Below, one piece after another: positions 2,868 through 16,156 of a DNA stretch of 20,232 nt (the stretch's first letter is position 1; the number at the start of each line of letters is the position of its first letter). A program made the position numbers and the translations under genes. Below the pieces are notes generated by a model. That model was not told where the DNA came from and did not search any database. It saw only the letters and a program-made list of their open reading frames with translations. Origin of the DNA: a virus; IMG/VR virus record IMGVR_UViG_3300045240_000042, positions 1 to 20,232 of that record. The stretch is one strand, 5' to 3'.

Positions 2868-3157
2868 CAGATCAGGTAGGCGATGTTGATGACAGCGGCC
2901 GCGGCTGCTGTCGAGGCGAACTTGAGCGTGCTGCCTTGCCCGACCGGGATGAACCACGGCATCTGGTCCTTCTGCAGGATCAGGCCAGTGGTGGTGGTCG
3001 GGTCACCGGCAGAGGTGAGCGTCATCCGGCAACTCGTCGTCTCCACCGCGACGAGGATCCCGCTCGCCCCGGCGGGCACGGTCGCCGTCTGCGTGTCGCT
3101 CGTGCCGCTGCTCGAGAGCCGCTGTTGGCTGACGCACTGAAAGGTGGACGGCTTCAA
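2867..3157 (-). CDS. Small virion-like beta protein, TTG start
   Basis: The protein has 96 residues. The start is TTG at 3157, chosen because GAGAGGAG lies about 6 bases upstream and no ATG or GTG fits the frame. The sequence alternates short polar and hydrophobic strands (SDTQTATVPAG, GILVAVETTSCRMTLTSAG, WFIPVGQGSTLKFASTAAAA), typical of a small beta sandwich such as capsid decoration proteins. Its last codon overlaps the start of the next gene (TGATG). No enzyme motif, signal peptide or membrane span is seen. The place in the head module and lack of charged helices suggest a structural role; nothing in it allows a firmer name. Confidence 0.66.
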   Translation of the reverse strand: MKPSTFQCVSQQRLSSSGTSDTQTATVPAGASGILVAVETTSCRMTLTSAGDPTTTTGLILQKDQMPWFIPVGQGSTLKFASTAAAAAVINIAYLI

Positions 3158-3170
3158 AGAAGGCTCCTCT

Positions 3171-3719
3171 CTAGCTGAAGATCGGAATGAACGACGCCGG
3201 GTTGGGACTCACCGACCCGCCACCACCGCCACCACCACCGGCGGTGACGACCGCCCAGACGGTGTAGGCGCGGGTGCTGCCGCTCGCGGTCGGTGACCCG
3301 AACGGGTCAGGGGGCGGGTTCGGGACGCCGCTCGCAATCCCCTTGTAGGTGCCGCCGTTACCGGCGTAGACGGCTGCGCTGGTGCCGGAGCCCGTGACGC
3401 CCAGGAACCCGATCCAGTAGTCGGCCGCCGGCAGCGCCACGTTGAACCCGGCCTCCTGCACCTCTATGTCGGCGGCACCGGTCGCGGTGGAGAGGACGCT
3501 CGTGTAAGCGATGCGGGCGCCGGGGCTCCCGGAGCCGTTGTCGGCGTAGATGACGACCCGTAACGTGCCGGCGGCGCCTCCGTTGTTCAGCGTCCAGGCG
3601 TGCAGCTCGGTCATGGTCGCGGCACTCGCGAGCGTGTACTTCGATGCGTACATGAGCCCGGAGGCGATCGTGGTCTGATCCCAGCTCGTGTCGTGAACGG
3701 GGTAGCCAAGGGTCGCCAC
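3171..3719 (-). CDS. Virion protein with jelly-roll-like domain and glycine hinge
   Basis: The protein has 182 residues from GTG 3719; the stop of the 53-aa gene before it lies 8 bases upstream. Residues 1-130 fit a beta-sandwich of the kind found in carbohydrate-binding and surface domains: an SGLMYASKYTLASAATMTELHAW opening is followed by LRVVIYADNGSGSPGARIAYT, a pattern (IYxDxGxxPGxxI) shared by many bacterial surface jelly rolls, and then ADYWIGFLGV. Near residue 160 there is an uninterrupted run of eight glycines, encoded by CCACC-type repeats at about 3219-3240, followed by a proline-rich end (SVSPNPASFIPIFS). The poly-Gly stretch looks like a flexible hinge joining the domain to a short anchoring tail. 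A glycan-binding capsid decoration protein is a reasonable guess, not shown. Confidence 0.66.
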   Translation of the reverse strand: MATLGYPVHDTSWDQTTIASGLMYASKYTLASAATMTELHAWTLNNGGAAGTLRVVIYADNGSGSPGARIAYTSVLSTATGAADIEVQEAGFNVALPAADYWIGFLGVTGSGTSAAVYAGNGGTYKGIASGVPNPPPDPFGSPTASGSTRAYTVWAVVTAGGGGGGGGSVSPNPASFIPIFS

Positions 3720-3727
3720 TTACAGTG

Positions 3728-3889
3728 TCACTTCCCCTTCGCTGCGAGCGACTGGAACCGCTTCTTCCCGAGTTTCTTGCGGCCGATCGACGCGGCCAAC
3801 GCCTTCGGGTCCTTGACCTTGGGATCGGACGCGAGCGACTTCGTGAGCGCGCTGAAGCGGGCGCCGCTACCGAGCTTCGGTTGGGCCAT
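3728..3889 (-). CDS. Small basic phage protein downstream of portal
   Basis: The protein has 53 residues, starting at ATG 3889 after AAAGG at 6 bases. It reads MAQPKLGSGARFSALTKSLA, then SDPKVKDPKALAASIGRKK and LGKKRFQSLAAKGK. It is very basic at the C-terminus and helical. Small proteins of this form (PKLGSGxRFxxL..., AAxIGRKKxGKKKFQxLAAKG) recur next to portal and head genes in many phages and metagenomic phage contigs, nearly always as hypothetical proteins. It is tightly packed between portal (24 bases) and the next gene. It could bind DNA or an acidic scaffold. No function is known to me. Confidence 0.72.
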   Translation of the reverse strand: MAQPKLGSGARFSALTKSLASDPKVKDPKALAASIGRKKLGKKRFQSLAAKGK

Positions 3890-3913
3890 GAGGAACCTTT
3901 CTCTAGTGACGGG

Positions 3914-6016
3914 TTAGCCGGGCGGACGCGCCGGCGGGGAAGCAACCCCGGGCTGTCTCGGCGGGCTCGGCGCGTTCGCGCCCGGAGATCCCCCGCCGGG
4001 CGCGGCAGCTCCCGGCGGGGTTGCGGCTGCCATCTGCATCTGCGCCTCGGCCTGCGCCTGCGCCGCCTGCATGTGCAACTGGCAATGCTGCTCGACGAGC
4101 TGCCAGAGCTGCATGTCCTGCCCGAACATCGCCATGTCCTGCAGGCGGCGGTGGATCGGGAGGTGGACGGCGTGGACGTCGTAGTAGGCGATCGGCATCG
4201 GCACGCCCTGCTGCAGGTAGTGGTTCTCGTACTCGGCCTTCTCGCCGGGGTTCTCCCCCGTCTCGGCGGGGAGCTCGAGCGCCTCGCCGGACTCGAACGA
4301 GTCCTTGTACCACTGGATCCACGCGCCCGGGCTCGACTGCACCGCCGCCGACAGGACCGCCGCGTTCCAGATGTCGGTGACCTTCTGCAGCTCGGCGGCC
4401 GGGGAGCGCGGCTTCGCGACCCCCTTGCCGATCTGGACGATGAAGAACGTCGGCGTCTTGGTCGCGTCGAAGGTGATCGCCTCGAGCCGGTCGTCGTCGC
4501 CGGCGAGGGCGATCTGCTTCTCGCGCCCCCAGTAGGAGCGGATGTCGTAGACGGTGTCCTCGACGAGCTGGCTGATCGCCCGCTTGCGCTCCAGGTAGAT
4601 CGGCTCGCGCTTCGCGGTGTCGGCCTCGTTCAGGAGCGAGAGCTGCGCGTAGGTGGTGACCCCGGGCGGGTTCTCTCCGCGCCTCGGCCCCGCGATACCG
4701 CTCGCGTGCGCCAAGTCCTCCCTGAGGGCTTCGATGTCGCCCTGCATCCAGGGGCCGGGGCCGATCCCGTTCACCGGCTGTGGTGCCCGCTCGGACGGGT
4801 CGATCTCCACGATCTCGTTGATCAGACCCTGCCTGCGTTTCGCCTCCGAGTTCTTCTGCACGATCACGTAAGGCATGTTCCGGTCGATGATCTCGTTCAT
4901 CTGCGTCCGGCGCTTGTTGATGCCCCTTTGGCCGTCCTTGAGCACGTCCATCAGGGCACGGCTCCAGAACCGGCCGGTGACCCTCCACCAGTGGAAGTAC
5001 GCGATCCCCGAGCGGTGCGTCCCGTCGGGCGCCAGGTACGGGAGCGTCTCCTTGTACTCGACCAGCTTGAAGTCGTTGCCGGCGAAGGTGACCTCGCGCC
5101 CCTGCGGGTAGCGCTGCGTCGGGCGCTCGTAGTAGGTGAACAACCAGACGTGGTCGCGGAGCCGGTTCTCCTGCGCGTCCCCCGCCATGTAGGTCGAGGC
5201 GTTCAGGGTCGGGCTCGAGGTCGAGATCCCGAGCGCGGTCGAGATGTCCTTGTCCTCCGTCAGCAGCGCCGCCTGCGGGTAGAGCTCCCTCACGTCGGCG
5301 AGCAGGGTGGGACGGACGATCGCCTCCCAGGCGAAGCTCTTCTCGTGGACGGCGCCGGGGGGGACGATGATGTTGAACGCGCTCAGCGGCTCCCAGCAGA
5401 TCCGGCCGGTGCGGACAGCCTGCATCGTCACCGCCGGGTTCGGGCCGCCGCTCATCAGGTCGGTCGCCTGCCCGATGTCCAGCACCGGCTTGCCGTCGAG
5501 GTGCGGGATGTTCTCGTCCATCACCGGCCCGCTCGTGGGGTCGAAGCGGCAGCGGATCGCGCCGGTGCCGAGATCGACGACGTAGCGGTCGACCTGCGCG
5601 AGCGCGTCGTCGCCGTCCCACTCGTGATCCCACCCGTACGCCAGGGCCCGGTTGAGCTGCTCCTGGAAGTCCTCCGAGACCTGGTCGTCGCGGCGCAGCA
5701 TCAGCTCGGGCCGGTCGTTGTCGGAGCCGAGCTCGCCGAGCGCGGTCAGGCGGTACTCGGTGATCGCGTCGGCGGTGACGAGCTCGCGCCCCCGGTACTT
5801 GGGGTCGAGCTCCTGGATCGTGCGGAGCGTCCGGGTCTGCCCGTGCCAGACGAGCCAGTGGTTCCCGGCCGCGTAGGCGAGGTTGACTTGCCAGCCGGGC
5901 TCGTAGTGGCGGCGCCGGTAGTCGCGGCCCTGGCGGACGCGGTCTCGGAGCGGCTTCACCTGCTCGTCGAGCAGCGACATGGAGCCGTTCTGGTCGACGT
6001 AGGCGAGCGATGTCAT
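3914..6016 (-). CDS. Portal protein
   Basis: The portal forms the dodecameric ring at one head vertex through which the terminase pumps DNA and to which the tail attaches. The protein has 700 residues from ATG 6016 with GGAGG upstream. Features visible are an N-terminal helical region (LLDEQVKPLRDRVRQGRDYRR), the HYEPGWQVNLAYAAGNHW segment typical of large portals, a wing with ICWEPLSAFNIIVPPGA, the repeated WxR pattern around HRSGIAYFHWWRVTGRFW, and a long helix with NKRRTQMNEIIDRNM. The last 90 residues are Gln/Ala-rich (LVEQHCQLHMQAAQAQAEAQ) and then Pro/Gly-rich, like the barrel tail of P22-type portals. Length and pattern favour the long P22-like kind. The order, terminase about 1.6 kb upstream and scaffold downstream, supports the call. 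Confidence 0.88.
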   Translation of the reverse strand: MTSLAYVDQNGSMSLLDEQVKPLRDRVRQGRDYRRRHYEPGWQVNLAYAAGNHWLVWHGQTRTLRTIQELDPKYRGRELVTADAITEYRLTALGELGSDNDRPELMLRRDDQVSEDFQEQLNRALAYGWDHEWDGDDALAQVDRYVVDLGTGAIRCRFDPTSGPVMDENIPHLDGKPVLDIGQATDLMSGGPNPAVTMQAVRTGRICWEPLSAFNIIVPPGAVHEKSFAWEAIVRPTLLADVRELYPQAALLTEDKDISTALGISTSSPTLNASTYMAGDAQENRLRDHVWLFTYYERPTQRYPQGREVTFAGNDFKLVEYKETLPYLAPDGTHRSGIAYFHWWRVTGRFWSRALMDVLKDGQRGINKRRTQMNEIIDRNMPYVIVQKNSEAKRRQGLINEIVEIDPSERAPQPVNGIGPGPWMQGDIEALREDLAHASGIAGPRRGENPPGVTTYAQLSLLNEADTAKREPIYLERKRAISQLVEDTVYDIRSYWGREKQIALAGDDDRLEAITFDATKTPTFFIVQIGKGVAKPRSPAAELQKVTDIWNAAVLSAAVQSSPGAWIQWYKDSFESGEALELPAETGENPGEKAEYENHYLQQGVPMPIAYYDVHAVHLPIHRRLQDMAMFGQDMQLWQLVEQHCQLHMQAAQAQAEAQMQMAAATPPGAAAPGGGSPGANAPSPPRQPGVASPPARPPG

Positions 6017-11483: not shown

Positions 11484-11672
11484 ATGAAGACCTTTGGCGT
11501 TTACCTCCACTCGTCCGGCACGCAGGGCGGCTACGTGGTGCGCACGATGCGCGACGGCACCGCAGCTGCCCCGTACCTGCACGTTCGCCCGGTCCACACC
11601 TACAAGCGCGAGTACCTCGCGCAGCTGATGGCCGACAAGCTCAACCTCGACCGCTTCGGAAAGGTGGCATAG
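11484..11672 (+). CDS. Small protein, unknown (first of plus-strand operon)
   Basis: The protein has 62 residues from ATG 11484, with AGGAG 8 bases upstream. It reads MKTFGVYLHSSGTQGGYVVR, an opening strand pair, then YLHVRPVHTYKREYLAQLMA and DKLNLDRFGKVA, a helix and basic tail. It looks like a compact beta-beta-alpha fold with many aromatic and basic residues. Its stop TAG is directly followed by the ATG of the next gene. It is run by the promoter at 11418-11446. No family is recognised. Confidence 0.62.
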   Translation: MKTFGVYLHSSGTQGGYVVRTMRDGTAAAPYLHVRPVHTYKREYLAQLMADKLNLDRFGKVA

Positions 11673-12005
11673 ATGCCCACTGACGAGACCTACAATGGCT
11701 GGAAGAACTACCCGACCTGGGCTGTGAATCTGTGGCTCTCGAACGACGAGGGCCTGTACCGGGAAGCGACGGCAATGGCGGAGACGTGGTCCCGCGGAGA
11801 TCATCCGAGGGTCGTCCTTGCTGATCGCTTCAAGACCTGGGTCACGGACATGGGCGTCTCGGTGGTAAACCGCTATGCCGGTGATGCCGCAACGGGCGAT
11901 CCCACGGGCTTCGGGGCCGACTTGTACGGATGGGCGCTCGCTCAGGTCGACTGGTACGAGATCGCCGACGCTTGGATCGAGTCGGCCTCCGAAGTCGAGG
12001 CCTAG
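11673..12005 (+). CDS. Conserved NGWxNYxTW-type phage protein (possibly DUF7249)
   Basis: The protein has 110 residues; its ATG at 11673 follows the previous TAG with no gap. It starts with MPTDETYNGWKNYPTWAVNL and WLSNDEGLYREATAMAE, matching a widespread uncharacterised family with an N-terminal YNGWxNYxTWNVALW motif and a following NDEGLY. I believe this is the DUF7249 family, from memory. The C-terminal half has GADLYGWALAQVDWYEIADAWIE, two helices ending in acidic residues. Members occur in phages and other mobile elements, usually in non-structural regions. Function unknown; aromatic motif and acidity would suit a protein-binding or DNA-mimic role, but that is a guess. Confidence 0.68.
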   Translation: MPTDETYNGWKNYPTWAVNLWLSNDEGLYREATAMAETWSRGDHPRVVLADRFKTWVTDMGVSVVNRYAGDAATGDPTGFGADLYGWALAQVDWYEIADAWIESASEVEA

Positions 12006-12209
12006 GTGCCCTCGTTCGACCAGGTCCGGCGGCGTCGGCGCGCGTACGATCGCGCGCTCGGCGCCTACCGTGCCGCGATCCTCGCCGAGCTCGAGCGTGG
12101 GACCAGCTACGCGGAGCTCGCACGGGCGCTCGGCGTCTCGCGGCAGACGATCAGGCAACTTGCCCTCCGAGCACGTAACCCCCACCAAATCCCGAAGGAG
12201 AACCGATGA
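12006..12209 (+). CDS. Small helix-turn-helix DNA-binding protein
   Basis: The protein has 67 residues from GTG 12006, directly after the preceding TAG. The N-terminus is strongly basic (VRRRRRAYDRALGAYRAAI). At residues 31-52 there is a clear helix-turn-helix, GTSYAELARALGVSRQTIRQLA, as in resolvase/Hin-type and sigma region 4-like folds. The end (RARNPHQIPKENR) is basic. It probably binds DNA and may regulate its own operon, perhaps through the 12-bp repeats at 11368 and 11454. The TGA stop overlaps the next ATG (ATGA). Confidence 0.7.
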   Translation: MPSFDQVRRRRRAYDRALGAYRAAILAELERGTSYAELARALGVSRQTIRQLALRARNPHQIPKENR

Positions 12210-12391
12210 CCACCAGCGAAATGCGCTCAACCTACGATCGGGTCTACGAAGCCATGTATTACGCAGGCCGCGACGCACTGAAATCCTGCTCGGATGCCGA
12301 GCTCTCACTACTGATCGGCCTTGCCGAGGATGAGGAGAACGGCTGGATCCAGGATGTGGCGACAGACGAGCTCGAACACCGCAGCTCATAG
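12206..12391 (+). CDS. Small acidic helical protein, unknown
   Basis: The protein has 61 residues from ATG 12206, overlapping the stop of the HTH gene, with GAAGGAG upstream. It reads MTTSEMRSTYDRVYEAMYYA, then ALKSCSDAELSLLIGLAEDEENGW and ATDELEHRSS. It is helical and acidic, without motifs. It closes the plus-strand operon and its TAG abuts the stop of the RuvC-like gene coming from the other side, so the two transcripts must meet head-on here with no terminator between them. Confidence 0.6.
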   Translation: MTTSEMRSTYDRVYEAMYYAGRDALKSCSDAELSLLIGLAEDEENGWIQDVATDELEHRSS

Positions 12392-13263: not shown

Positions 13264-13536
13264 TCACGTGCAGGGGTTTTCCAGGCCGGCCCCCGCGCCT
13301 GGCTCGGAGGCAGCGTCGGGGGAGTCACGGGCTGCGGCCCCCGCCCGGCCTGGAAGCTTGTAACACCAGTTCGAATCCGCTAGGCGCTTTGGGCACGTCG
13401 TGTAATGCTCATTCCAAGCCTCGAAGTTCCATCCCCAGGGCTTGCCGACTGGGTGCTCTGCACACCCGCAGCACCACTGACCGACGCAAGCTGCGTCGAG
13501 GTACTCGTGCCGCTCGATCCCCGGCTCGTCGCTCAC
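13264..13536 (-). CDS. Cys/Trp-rich protein with element copy 1 in its frame
   Basis: The protein has 90 residues from GTG 13536. The GTG overlaps the stop (GTGA) of the frame through element copy 2. Residues 1-50 look like a zinc-binding unit: YLDAACVGQWCCGCAEHPVG with cysteines at 17, 22, 23 and 25, then HYTTCPKR with a further cysteine. At KRLADSNWCYKLPGR the frame passes through copy 1 of the repeated element, giving the peptide RLADSNW. The last 30 residues are Ala/Gly/Pro-rich and without pattern (AAARDSPDAASEPGAGAG), so the natural end may differ. No family is recognised. Confidence 0.5.
   Translation of the reverse strand: MSDEPGIERHEYLDAACVGQWCCGCAEHPVGKPWGWNFEAWNEHYTTCPKRLADSNWCYKLPGRAGAAARDSPDAASEPGAGAGLENPCT
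13361..13387 (-). repeat. 27-bp element, copy 1
   Basis: The core GTTCGAATCCGCTAGGCG lies at 13369-13386, preceded by TAACACCA. It matches copy 2 at 20 of 21 core positions. It lies within the frame of the 90-aa gene, read as RLADSNW on the minus strand. Confidence 0.7.
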
Positions 13537-13541
13537 GGCCG

Positions 13542-13568
13542 TTTACACCAGTTCGACTCCGCTAACCT
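13542..13568 (+). promoter_or_regulatory. Possible leaderless promoter formed by element copy 2
   Basis: TTTACA (13542-13547) and TAACCT (13563-13568) look like -35 and -10 boxes, though with a short 15-base spacer. TAACCT lies 7 bases before GTG 13576, the distance seen in leaderless actinobacterial mRNAs. Most other copies of the element read TAGGCG where this one has TAACCT, so only this copy carries a good -10 box. The short spacing keeps confidence low. Confidence 0.35.
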
Positions 13569-13569
13569 T
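13543..13569 (-). repeat. 27-bp element, copy 2
   Basis: The core GTTCGACTCCGCTAACC is at 13551-13567. It precedes the plus-strand zinc-ribbon gene and, read on the minus strand, gives RLAESNWCKRP, whose stop overlaps the start of the 90-aa gene. The CGC-to-AGG and CTA-to-TTA changes relative to other copies keep Arg and Leu. Confidence 0.7.
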
Positions 13570-13575
13570 GGCTGT

Positions 13576-13740
13576 GTGGACGATCCGAAGCTCGCGTATC
13601 TCCGCGATGACGCTCCGTACGTCGTGTGCTCCTCATGCGGGCGTAGTAGCTGGGCGGGGCCAGCAGGCTCGACATGCGGGATGCCACAGCCGGACGGCAC
13701 GAAGTGCGAAGGCGTCTTCAGCCTTCTCCGACGCCCATAG
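13576..13740 (+). CDS. Small zinc-ribbon protein on the plus strand, framed by element copies
   Basis: The protein has 54 residues from GTG 13576 (VDDPKLAYLRDDAPYVV). Cysteines are arranged as YVVCSSCGRSSWAG, then STCGMPQPDGTKCEGVF, a typical four-cysteine zinc ribbon (CxxC, then C and C). This meaningful pattern is why I take the plus strand as coding; the minus-strand frame through the same bases is a plain antisense reading. Between the leftmost element (copy 2) and the rightmost (copy 3) there is nothing except this gene; its TAG is the first three bases of copy 3. It is the only plus-strand gene between 12.4 and 18.7 kb. Function unknown; regulation or RNA/DNA binding is typical for such ribbons. 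Confidence 0.6.
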   Translation: MDDPKLAYLRDDAPYVVCSSCGRSSWAGPAGSTCGMPQPDGTKCEGVFSLLRRP

Positions 13741-13764
13741 CACCAATACGAATCCGCTAGGCGC
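13738..13764 (-). repeat. 27-bp element, copy 3
   Basis: It contains CACCAATACGAATCCGCTAG at 13741-13760 followed by GCGC. It holds two stop codons of convergent genes: TAG (13738-13740) of the plus-strand ribbon gene and CTA (13757-13759) of the methyltransferase-like gene on the minus strand. It reads RLADSYW on the minus strand. Confidence 0.68.
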
Positions 13765-14392
13765 ACGCCGCCACCCCAGCCGTGCGGGCCATCTCGAGCA
13801 GGACGTCACGGAACGCCGGCGGGCTAGTCGCGGTCAGACCGTGATGACCGCCGCGATGCTGGCTATTCAGCCACTGCTCCTGTCGACCTTGGAAGCGATC
13901 CCGCCAGGTCGCGATAGTCCAATCCCCACCCCGAACCTCGCGGTTCAAGTCGCGGCCCCAGCGAAGCTCAGGCAGCTCTACTCCATAGGCGTAGAGCCAC
14001 GTCCCTTTCTTGATCGGCAACCCGTAGCGTCCCTGTTCGACGTAGCAGGATGCACCGCCGTCAAGACCGAGCGTCCAGCCTCCGTCCCAGATCGGCTTCG
14101 GCAGCCCGTAGCAGGCCCACGCCGCGCTATAGGCCGGATGCTCGAGGACGCCGCCGTAGGTGCGTACAGCCTTGAGTGCCGAGGCGAAGCAGCCTTCATC
14201 GGCGCCGCGTTTGTAGCCGAACCTCGCCTCGGTGAACCCGGCAAGCATCGACCAGCGGGCGCACGGCGGGTGCGCCACCACCGGCCACGGCCCCGCATAC
14301 AGCCGCGCATCACGCGCCTCGTCCCACACCTCGACGCCGGGGAGGCCCGCGTAGACGCCGTTCGGATCGACGTACAAGGCGGCGACGGTCAC
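13757..14392 (-). CDS. Cytosine-C5-methyltransferase-like phage protein
   Basis: The protein has 211 residues from GTG 14392, which overlaps the stop of the 45-aa gene (GTGA). The pattern belongs to a common phage family: VVAHPPCARWSMLAGF at residues 38-53, DEGCFASALKAVRTYGGVLEHPAYSAAW at 75-103 and YVEQGRYGLPIKKGTWLYAYG later. The HPPC motif at 41-44 resembles motif IV (PC) of DNA cytosine methyltransferases, where Cys attacks the base. The classic motif I for S-adenosylmethionine and a target recognition domain are not visible, and the protein is shorter than full enzymes (300 or more residues). So it could be a degenerate methyltransferase or an unrelated base-modifying enzyme. The Cys is preserved. 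Confidence 0.62.
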   Translation of the reverse strand: MTVAALYVDPNGVYAGLPGVEVWDEARDARLYAGPWPVVAHPPCARWSMLAGFTEARFGYKRGADEGCFASALKAVRTYGGVLEHPAYSAAWACYGLPKPIWDGGWTLGLDGGASCYVEQGRYGLPIKKGTWLYAYGVELPELRWGRDLNREVRGGDWTIATWRDRFQGRQEQWLNSQHRGGHHGLTATSPPAFRDVLLEMARTAGVAACA

Positions 14393-14526
14393 GCTTCCCG
14401 CCTTGAACGCTCGTTCTGTTCCGGAAGGTTCTCGGCGGGGAGGGGTCGGTTTATCTCGGCGTCCCGGTACCCGGTGGCCTCCCCGCCAAGCCGTTTACGC
14501 TCGTTCTGATCCGCTAGGCGGGTCAT
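14389..14526 (-). CDS. 45-aa protein containing two element copies
   Basis: The protein has 45 residues from ATG 14526. The start overlaps the stop of the membrane peptide gene (ATGA) and the stop overlaps the start of the methyltransferase-like gene (GTGA). It has an internal repeat: TRLADQNERKRL near the N-terminus and LPEQNERSRREA at the C-terminus, encoded by element copies 4 and 5. Between them lies an inverted repeat (14434-14487) encoding GGEATGYRDAEINRPLPAEN. It is hydrophilic and helical, without motifs. The fully overlapped context argues that it is translated; its function may be to carry ribosomes over the element. Confidence 0.5.
   Translation of the reverse strand: MTRLADQNERKRLGGEATGYRDAEINRPLPAENLPEQNERSRREA
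14405..14431 (-). repeat. 27-bp element, copy 5 (degenerate)
   Basis: It contains ACGCTCGTTCTG (14407-14418), identical to copy 4, then TTCCGGAAGG in place of ATCCGCTAGG. On the minus strand it reads LPEQNER and leads to a stop that overlaps the start of the methyltransferase-like gene. Confidence 0.55.
14434..14487. repeat. 10-bp inverted repeat between element copies 4 and 5
   Basis: GGCGGGGAGG (14434-14443) and CCTCCCCGCC (14478-14487) pair perfectly with a 34-base loop. The stem lies between two direct element copies, all within the 45-aa gene. On the minus strand it would form an RNA hairpin in front of the methyltransferase-like start. A pairing in single-stranded DNA, as at some recombination sites, is also possible. 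Confidence 0.5.
14495..14521 (-). repeat. 27-bp element, copy 4
   Basis: It reads ACGCTCGTTCTGATCC (14497-14512) followed by GCTAGGCGG. It begins CCGTTTAC just outside, as copy 2 does. It encodes RLADQNER on the minus strand, at the N-terminus of the 45-aa protein. Confidence 0.68.
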
Positions 14527-14603
14527 GAGTAGATCCACCACCAGAACACAGCCGCAGCGCAGACCGCGATAACAACGCCTGCAAGCACCATGAAGCCGAT
14601 CAC
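14523..14603 (-). CDS. 26-aa single-span membrane peptide
   Basis: GTG 14603 overlaps the stop of the acetyltransferase-like gene (GTGA), and the TGA overlaps the ATG of the 45-aa gene (ATGA). The peptide is one hydrophobic helix, MIGFMVLAGVVIAVCAAAVF followed by WWWIYS. The run of three Trp is unusual and would sit at the membrane interface. A small phage membrane peptide might affect lysis or the host membrane, but it lies far from any proven lysis gene except the endolysin 1.3 kb downstream. The two overlaps and the hydrophobic helix support translation. Confidence 0.52.
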   Translation of the reverse strand: MIGFMVLAGVVIAVCAAAVFWWWIYS

Positions 14604-15052
14604 GCCACGACCTCCCAGAGTTGCCGCTGCGAACTCCGGTATGTCTTATTCGCACGGGGGCGAGAAGGCGCCGACCACCCGACACGCGCGGGCCGCTGAG
14701 CAATCACATGGAACCCAGACGCGCGGAGCGACGAGCCGCTCTCATCGGCCTGCGTGTAAGTGATGACGCGCCGGTAGCCGAGCGCGAACGCAGCCCGCTG
14801 GCAGGCGCCATAAAGCATCGAGCAGGCGTTCCGGGAACCGTCCGACGCGACCCGGTTCACCTCGATCGTCATCCCGTCGTCAAACGCTCGAGCGACAGGC
14901 CGACCCGCGATCGCGACGGCGCGTAGAACCCCGTCGCCGTCAGCTGCGCCGACGCAGAACTTCGCGCCGGGAACCGGGCGGTTGTGGCGGTGCCACGCGG
15001 CGCAATGCTCGTTCGCCTGGGCGAGCGTCACCGGGACGAGGTGCAGGCTCAT
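14600..15052 (-). CDS. XF1762-family acetyltransferase-like protein
   Basis: The protein has 150 residues from ATG 15052, with a GAGG site 8 bases upstream. It matches a phage family with GNAT-like architecture: LAQANEHCAAWHRHNRPVPG, AVAIAGRPVARAFDDGMTIE and a very conserved core VNRVASDGSRNACSMLYGAC, then ALGYRRVITYTQADESGSSL followed by GFHVIAQRPARVGWS. The VNR...DG...NACSxLYGA segment and GYxRVITYT are recognisable. Members probably transfer an acetyl or similar group from a CoA donor to an unknown target, perhaps DNA bases or host proteins; the reaction is not established. Upstream, element copy 6 separates it from the integrase. Its stop overlaps the start of the membrane peptide. Confidence 0.74.
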   Translation of the reverse strand: MSLHLVPVTLAQANEHCAAWHRHNRPVPGAKFCVGAADGDGVLRAVAIAGRPVARAFDDGMTIEVNRVASDGSRNACSMLYGACQRAAFALGYRRVITYTQADESGSSLRASGFHVIAQRPARVGWSAPSRPRANKTYRSSQRQLWEVVA

Positions 15053-15178
15053 GCCTTCGGCCTCGAAGCCTGGTTCTGTTCCGCTAGGCGGCTGCGTGCA
15101 GCGGTTTGGCGACTAACCTGGGAAGGTTGGCTCAAACACTTTGACGCCTTTAGATAACCGGTCGGAGCGCGCACGAGA
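15053..15178 (-). other. Integrase-acetyltransferase gap with element copy 6; possible attP region
   Basis: This gap of 126 bases follows the integrase, where attP often lies. It holds a 5-bp inverted repeat AACCT/AGGTT around GGGA (15115-15128) and element copy 6. A 28-codon frame from TTG 15135 runs through the element, ending RLAEQNQASRPKA, with its stop overlapping the ATG at 15052. Its ribosome site is weak (AAAGG 11 bases away). No tRNA-like stretch is present. An attP core cannot be named without the bacterial side. Confidence 0.35.
15065..15091 (-). repeat. 27-bp element, copy 6
   Basis: It contains GGTTCTGTTCCGCTAGGCGG at 15072-15091. It reads RLAEQNQ on the minus strand, leading to a stop that overlaps the start of the acetyltransferase-like gene. 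It is the copy closest to the integrase gene. Confidence 0.68.
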
Positions 15179-16156
15179 CTATGAGCGGGTTCCAGCGTCG
15201 GAGCTGTGGGAACTTTGGATTCGCTCCTCGATTTCGCGCATCGCCTCACGGCGCGCGCCCTTGTTCCGGTGGTGGTAGATGTCGCGAGTCGTGCGGATCG
15301 ACTCGTGCCCCAGCCAGTCCTGCACGTAGCCCTCGTCGATCCCCGCCTCGAGCCAGAAGGTCGCGAACGAATGCCGCGTCGTGTGCGGCTTGCGGTACTC
15401 CACCCCCGCGGCCTCGAGCGCCAGCCGCCACCAGCGAGCGAACGTCGAGGTCGGCACCGGCGTCGCACGCCGCGTCAGATGCCCACCGCCCGGATGGGAG
15501 GCCCAGAAGTGATCGTCCGGGCCGAGCCCGTCGGTCAGGATCAGCTCATGGAAGGCGCCGGCCGCGGCCTGGGTCAGGTCGACCAAGCGCTCCTTGCCGC
15601 CCTTCGCGCCCTCCCGCACCAGCAGCTCCTCCTGGTCGAAGTCGACCCGCCGGACGGTCAGCTCGCGGGCCTCCTGGTTGCGGATCCCGGTCTCGATCAG
15701 GATCGTCATCAGCTCGCCGTCGGGGTACGGCAGCGCCTTGAGCGCGTGCCGCTCGATCTCGGTGAACACGTCGATGTTCCGGTTCGGCTTGTAGCGGATG
15801 TCGGGCAGCCACTCGGCCGGGTTCTCCTTCAACCGGCGGGTCTTGTAGCCCCAGCGGAACCATTGGTTCAGCGGGGCCTTGTAGATGTGGCGTGACTTGT
15901 CGGGCGCCGTCGCGAGCACCGCGAGCAGGTCGGCGTCGGTGAACTCGTCGAACCGCTTCTCCGGGTAGGCCATGAGCAGCCGGGCGGCGTTCCGCTCGTA
16001 CGCCTCGAGGGTCCTCGGGCGCTTGTTCGCGACCTTCATGTACTCGAGCCAGGCGAGCAGGTCGGGCCACGCTTTCGCACTGTGGTGTTTCGCGTTGTAG
16101 ATCATGACGCCGGACGGTAACCGCAAACCGCCGCGGGCAAGCGTGAGCGTGCTCAC
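15179..16156 (-). CDS. int: Tyrosine recombinase (phage integrase)
   Basis: The protein has 325 residues from GTG 16156, which overlaps the stop of the nuclease gene (GTGA). The N-terminal SAM-like domain is at about 28-115 (WPDLLAWLEYMKVANKRPRT, LNQWFRWGYKTRRLKENPAE). The catalytic domain holds every expected residue: Arg159 in LIETGIRNQEAREL, Lys188 in GAKGGKER, His258 and Arg261 in KPHTTRHSF, His284 in WLGHESI, and Tyr294 as nucleophile in RDIYHH. The arm-type N-terminal domain of lambda integrase is short or absent. It should carry out site-specific integration and excision through a DNA-tyrosine bond. It has no integron-type insertion near the third catalytic patch. Co-transcription with the ERF and nuclease genes is unusual. 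Confidence 0.92.
   Translation of the reverse strand: MSTLTLARGGLRLPSGVMIYNAKHHSAKAWPDLLAWLEYMKVANKRPRTLEAYERNAARLLMAYPEKRFDEFTDADLLAVLATAPDKSRHIYKAPLNQWFRWGYKTRRLKENPAEWLPDIRYKPNRNIDVFTEIERHALKALPYPDGELMTILIETGIRNQEARELTVRRVDFDQEELLVREGAKGGKERLVDLTQAAAGAFHELILTDGLGPDDHFWASHPGGGHLTRRATPVPTSTFARWWRLALEAAGVEYRKPHTTRHSFATFWLEAGIDEGYVQDWLGHESIRTTRDIYHHRNKGARREAMREIEERIQSSHSSDAGTRS

Follow-up and report, generated by a model that had tools for sequence, protein, structure and literature searches.

A candidate integrase-linked cassette array with attP-like, translated junctions in a family of uncultured phages

The window (the whole 20,232-nt stretch of viral DNA analysed here, IMG/VR record IMGVR_UViG_3300045240_000042) carries next to its integrase gene a run of small genes separated by related elements of 30 nt, and the element recurs in other phage contigs, where it resembles the attP-like site of the integrase and is open in one reading frame. 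The best explanation, which we rate at an even chance, is an integrase-linked, integron-like cassette array in an uncultured phage family, whose attP-derived junctions double as translational couplers.

A PWM scan of the window identified six copies of the 30-nt element, each on the minus strand, with 5' ends at 15090, 14520, 14430, 13763, 13568 and 13386; an earlier note on this DNA had counted three and missed the other three, as well as the attP-like relatives of the element and its reading frame. All six fall in the interval from 13357 to the integrase end (15179), on the same strand as the integrase. The 21-mer CACCAGTTCGAATCCGCTAGG, with up to 3 mismatches, gave 3 matches in the window vs 0 in 100 shuffles. 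The first element (15061–15090, type C, PWM score 29.5) is located 89 bp past the integrase stop. It is followed by CGCCTAGCGG-ATCAGAA-CGAGCGTAAACGG at 14491–14520 (score 40.0), the frame of which begins at an ATGA overlap at 14526, and by a type A element with a diverged left arm, AACCTTCCGG-AACAGAA-CGAGCGTTCAAGG, at 14401–14430 (score 27.4). Copy 3, CGCCTAGCGG-ATTCGTA-TTGGTGCTATGGG at 13734–13763 (score 27.9), supplies the TAG that terminates a 211-aa gene; copy 2, type B, AGGTTAGCGG-AGTCGAA-CTGGTGTAAACGG at 13539–13568 (score 34.7), runs into a GTGA that is the start of a 90-aa ORF; and copy 1, CGCCTAGCGG-ATTCGAA-CTGGTGTTACAAG at 13357–13386 (score 38.6), ends the array. Directly past copy 1 there is a GC-rich, strongly foldable stretch (13271–13360; fold z-score only −1.5) that is 92–96% identical to stretches of G006 and G009 outside their arrays. 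Neither a tRNA nor a known RNA was found in the window.

The tyrosine recombinase that the earlier note had placed near the array was confirmed as an integrase of 325 aa (15179–16156, minus strand; PF00589, E 4.6e-26; PHROGs integrase, E 4.6e-45); by tblastn all its matches were below 60% identity, with 24–32% among the matches listed. The cassette genes of the minus strand comprise a Mom-like DNA-modification protein (14600–15052, 150 aa; phrog_1384, E 1.9e-33), a 45-aa ORF MTRLADQNERKR...LPEQNERSRREA (14389–14526) in which two elements are joined in one frame and which is coupled by ATGA and GTGA overlaps, the 211-aa gene (13757–14392; phrog_12600, unknown function, E 6e-51) and, past copy 2, an ORF of 90 aa as read (13264–13536) with a Cys-rich N-terminal part, in frame through copy 1. 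The 211-aa gene is also present in another array (G005) and in element-free phages; its first-retrieved relatives (L003–L013) were without elements, and the closest full-length one (L003, 69%) adjoins an apparent large serine recombinase, likewise without elements (2980–4347 and 5001–5672).

Opposite to the other array genes, a 54-aa Cys-rich, zinc-ribbon-like gene with a GTG start and the pattern CxxC...C...C is located on the plus strand at 13576–13740. Reading frame and element coordinates bear out that it lies exactly between copies 2 and 3, that its GTG at 13576 is 7 bases past TAACCT (13563–13568) and that its TAG (13738–13740) is the first triplet of copy 3; the further claim that it is the only plus-strand gene of the region holds for about 12.4–18 kb and fails beyond, where plus-strand ORFs are found at 11484–12391. 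Searches of the protein against Pfam and PHROGs gave no match, and the protein search returned a single relative, in an element-free stretch of a phage contig (L014). The plus strand is probably coding here, because the Cys-bearing part (residues 13–48) is 62% identical to the C-terminus of that relative, a 149-aa protein. The proposal of the earlier note, a cassette tied to the recombinase, is well supported for the array as a whole, in 23 contigs: arrays adjoin the integrase, their contents are unrelated between conserved flanks, and the right border occurs with and without an extra cassette. For this particular gene the expected empty site with one element copy was not found. We rate it at an even chance that the gene is a reversed cassette of the array; as such it would require its own promoter. 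No sigma-70-like promoter was found for it; TAACCT is peculiar to copy 2 among the window copies (left arm AGGTTAGCGG vs the usual CGCCTAGCGG) and could, as a guess, allow a leaderless start. Reversal of a cassette would not necessarily interrupt the translational coupling of the operon, since in the element frame of the minus strand no stop codon interrupts the path from copy 3, antisense to the zinc-ribbon gene, to copy 2 and its GTGA (13533–13766, 77 codons). This 77-aa ORF is possibly only a translational path, and its openness may be chance.

For the survey of relatives, IMG/VR was scanned with a DNA pattern made from the window copies, with variants of this pattern and with an attP-like pattern, and matches were checked by PWM. 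The element was found in 22 further contigs, so that with the window 23 contigs hold 91 cassette copies and 13 attP-like sites. Fifteen contigs (G000–G014) were scanned whole by PWM and gave 81 sites above threshold, with 0 in the reversed-sequence control; 80 of these 81 share the strand of the integrase, and with few exceptions they are no more than about 4 kb away from it. Arrays are downstream of the integrase, G001 being the one case of an array just upstream; that of G006 is at the far contig end and is near the integrase only if the contig is circular. The exceptions are a weak match in G001, far off from its integrase, and an opposite-strand match at the attP-like site of G003. PF00589 integrases are encoded in 15/15 contigs, 10 found via the element and 5 via the attP pattern, and the association is not built into the search because the first ten contigs were found by the element alone. 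Among eight later element-found contigs, two encode an integrase; in the other six, fragments of 6–27 kb, no tyrosine recombinase was found. No serine recombinase was found in the 23 contigs. No host was identified, because the two matches in cellular genomes (L037 and L038) appear to be isolated chance hits within coding sequence; terminase relatives were too distant to call a host. Identical integrase matches at both ends of G002 (348–845 and 42724–43221) suggest a terminally redundant or circular genome. A conserved stretch at the integrase N-terminus was considered as a further element copy and rejected; divergent integrases share this stretch, LADNKKPG...ARARHRR, located at their likely start or immediately ahead of it (e.g. 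L049 8376–8500, L072 12596–12720).

In 12 of the 15 whole-scanned contigs a dyad version of the element, GCCTAGCGG-N7-CCGCTGTTNNAGGC, follows the integrase, with conserved arms and a 7-bp spacer that varies between phages (ATTCGAA, AGTCGAA, AACAGTT, AACAGTA, AGTCCTT, ATCACAT, ATTCCAT, AACTTTA). Conserved arms around a variable 7-bp centre, adjoining int, are the signature of a tyrosine-integrase core site, and the integrase-proximal sites have inverted arms around a 7-bp overlap in just this place, as expected of an attP core. The cassette copies retain one arm only: they share with the dyad the left arm, the outer GCC/GGC and the placing of the spacer, and have CTGG, CGAG, CCAG or CCCA where the right arm of the dyad has CCGC. 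A PWM trained on cassette copies only scored the clear dyad sites at 17–40 and the unusual site of G003 at 9–16; among 286,234 control positions 3 exceeded 10, the highest reaching 20. Mean identity of cassette copies to attP was 0.63–0.65 vs 0.27 for random 30-mers. In eight other phages the attP-like dyad is located 48–111 bp past the integrase stop; in the window the type-C cassette element occupies this position, at 89 bp, which is what recombination of attP with an element would leave. Read on the opposite strand, the ATTCGAA version of the dyad resembles a tRNA T-arm, and the palindromic AGCGG-TTCGAAT-CCGCT is thereby similar to attP cores in tRNA T-arms in general, from which the present case differs in that many diverged copies flank cargo genes within the phage genome. 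BLAST of the element against a phage database gave only tRNA genes, with weak matches to tRNA-Thr and tRNA-Cys, and other weak matches. Some integrase-type sites (L043 5954–5993; L079, minus-oriented, 2015) have an extra inverted half-site CTAGCGGA...TCCGCTAG, which makes three half-sites or a long dyad.

Cassettes are roughly 90–900 bp long, mostly with one small gene each, and are separated by elements of about 30–45 nt. G003, G005, G007 and G009 come from related phages. The integrases of G003, G005 and G007 are 90–96% identical and the right-flank proteins of G003, G005 and G009 are 91–98% identical; no shared cassette genes were detectable among the arrays of these four contigs. The last element of G007 abuts the backbone gene directly (TGGTGTGACCGGCC|GTGACGGCGG), whereas G003, G005 and G009 have one further gene, different in each, between element and backbone gene, so that the right border is seen both occupied and unoccupied. 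A cassette with a 39-aa membrane protein is common to G001 and G006, and one with a CxxC protein to G003 and G008, in both cases with different neighbours; the 211-aa gene of the window likewise has other neighbours in G005. Comparison of the contigs thus shows wholesale change of array content while both flanks stay.

Exchange at the elements mediated by the integrase is favoured, at about even odds; its catalysis we infer, whereas the turnover is shown by the comparison. The elements would descend from attP/attB core sites, and the phage integrase or a relative would recombine two elements, or one element and attP, within the 7-bp spacer. Genes would be gained, lost and reordered as cassettes consisting of a right half-site, a gene and the next left half-site, and the element would then act as translational coupler, with the newly placed gene expressed from the shared transcript. 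More tentatively, and on balance doubtfully, this may be a phage cassette-capture system of its own kind, in which the prophage integrase uses attP-derived half-sites as cassette junctions. Whenever phages integrate, excise or superinfect, they would then trade small genes that act against the host or raise fitness, each junction being a translational relay or N-terminal tag that makes the incoming gene expressible. Doubt about the role of the integrase arises because the spacers within an array differ, often being unlike those of their neighbours and unlike that of the attP, and because the elements are no closer to the attP of their own phage (0.653) than to those of others (0.634). That no tyrosine recombinase was found in six of the eight later contigs also counts against it, though these are fragments. 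Nor does right-arm type track integrase clade. CTA is present in the left arm of 13/13 attP sites and cassettes are looser (CTA/CTT/TTA/TTG) with Leu, Asn and Arg retained, which hints at a coding constraint beside or instead of a site constraint.

The alternative that survives best, itself rather unlikely, is that the elements are short conserved patches of homology at gene borders, exchanged by phage annealases or host enzymes, and that the resemblance to attP is ancestry only. The window does encode an ERF annealase, element copies can be near-identical in phages whose neighbouring genes are unrelated (49 bp at 100% in G001 vs G005), and mosaicism driven by homology, through Rad52-like recombinases such as Erf, has been documented in other phages (PMC3945230). 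ERF, the one annealase family scanned for, was however found in only 2/23 contigs, the elements occur only beside the integrase or attP and are absent from gene borders elsewhere, and the retained attP-like architecture would be needless for simple homology.

The reading frame of the element bears on a second alternative, which we regard as unlikely, namely that selection maintains the elements for coding or coupling and that the turnover is ordinary phage mosaicism; the junction peptide L-[AP]-[DE]-x-N-x-x-x-R would couple genes (types A/B/C) or serve as an N-terminal tag (type D, MTLPDSNPSKRP...). One frame (CGC CTA GCG GAT ...) crosses the element without a stop in 67/67 cassette copies tested, and no other frame does so in all of them. 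In 25 of these the start codon overlaps the upstream stop (NTGA) 6 nt before the element, and in others translation reads through from the gene upstream or begins 3 nt before the element. Types A/B/C usually end in a TGA overlapping the start codon of the next gene, which in most type A/B copies is GTG (GTGA). Type D copies are the N-terminus of the next gene, so that unrelated proteins (those of G008, G013, G014 and L085) have MTLPDSNPSKRP-like starts and an N-terminal peptide in common. The codons are degenerate at Leu, at Asn (AAC 60, AAT 25) and at Arg (CGG 55, AGG 22), which speaks for the coding alternative; against it, two bases at third codon positions are fixed, G9 in nearly all copies and T24 in most, and codon position 3 does not clearly stand out as the one of highest entropy. 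It also leaves unexplained the arm, spacer and outer ends shared with the dyad, and the confinement to the integrase. We favour exchange by the integrase and consider that the element probably has a double role as recombination site and translated junction. In the type-D arrays (L049, L072, L074, L078, L084, L085) unrelated small proteins share the element-encoded peptide, e.g. MSLPDSNPSKRP, which may be a tag for targeting or a by-product of the junction.

That the elements are structured RNA signals at gene junctions, a riboregulator or processing hairpin, is very improbable: in some copies of types A and B, GGCC...GGCC or CCCGCC...GGCGGG could base-pair over a Shine-Dalgarno-like stretch, but the folding z-score of cassette elements averages 0.16 with 2% below −2, the window has no Rfam match, and the outer arms are without covariation visible by eye; this near-zero z-score and the lack of visible covariation disfavour the hairpin. 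Chance repeats around an ordinary small gene can be dismissed, short and diverged as single copies are, by the recurrence of the element in 23 contigs with 0 matches in shuffles and reversed controls.

Among known systems, integrons have been described in phages, with attC sites and IntI (PMC9892861). The array is similar to an integron in its tyrosine recombinase, in the distinct primary site alongside, in its one-directional small-gene cassettes split by related sites, which do adjoin the recombinase and that site, and in methylase-type cargo. It is not classed as an integron because its integrases are far below the cut-offs of integron-integrase models (TIGR02249, best 70.6 bits, cut-off 265; PRK15417, 58.6, cut-off 435) and because its sites resemble phage attP; XerC-like models score somewhat higher on these integrases, also below cut-off. 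The array sites are moreover about 30 nt long with an open reading frame, have arms and a 7-bp spacer where no GTTRRRY-type architecture was seen by eye, and run in the same direction as the integrase. The dif/pdif modules of Acinetobacter plasmids likewise consist of small gene modules shuffled between short two-armed tyrosine-recombinase-type sites with a central spacer; they depend on the XerC/XerD of the host and on dif-like sites carried by plasmids and chromosomes (PMC6449649), whereas here a phage integrase adjoins the array and the sites are one-directional and attP-like. The nearest known phage intergenic elements are the SAS/ESAS of Cluster K mycobacteriophages, also repeated, one-directional and at gene starts in the non-structural genome part. 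SAS is a 13-bp non-palindromic sequence, GGGATAGGAGCCC, found across the right genome half and largely tied to the same gene families, for which neither a tie to attP nor turnover of cassettes is described (PMC3203893); the present element is unrelated to it in sequence and is confined to the neighbourhood of the integrase. The array would function like an integron or dif modules yet is classed as neither, and no description of such an integrase-linked phage cassette arrangement was found in open-licence papers.

The finding touches the question of how small accessory genes turn over rapidly at precise borders in temperate phages. A phage family with recognisable cassette borders, which are similar to integration sites, lie beside the integrase and bring their own translation junction, makes this question directly testable. 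Mom-like and other methylase-like genes are already among the array cargo, and the element would be a marker for finding many small phage cargo genes.
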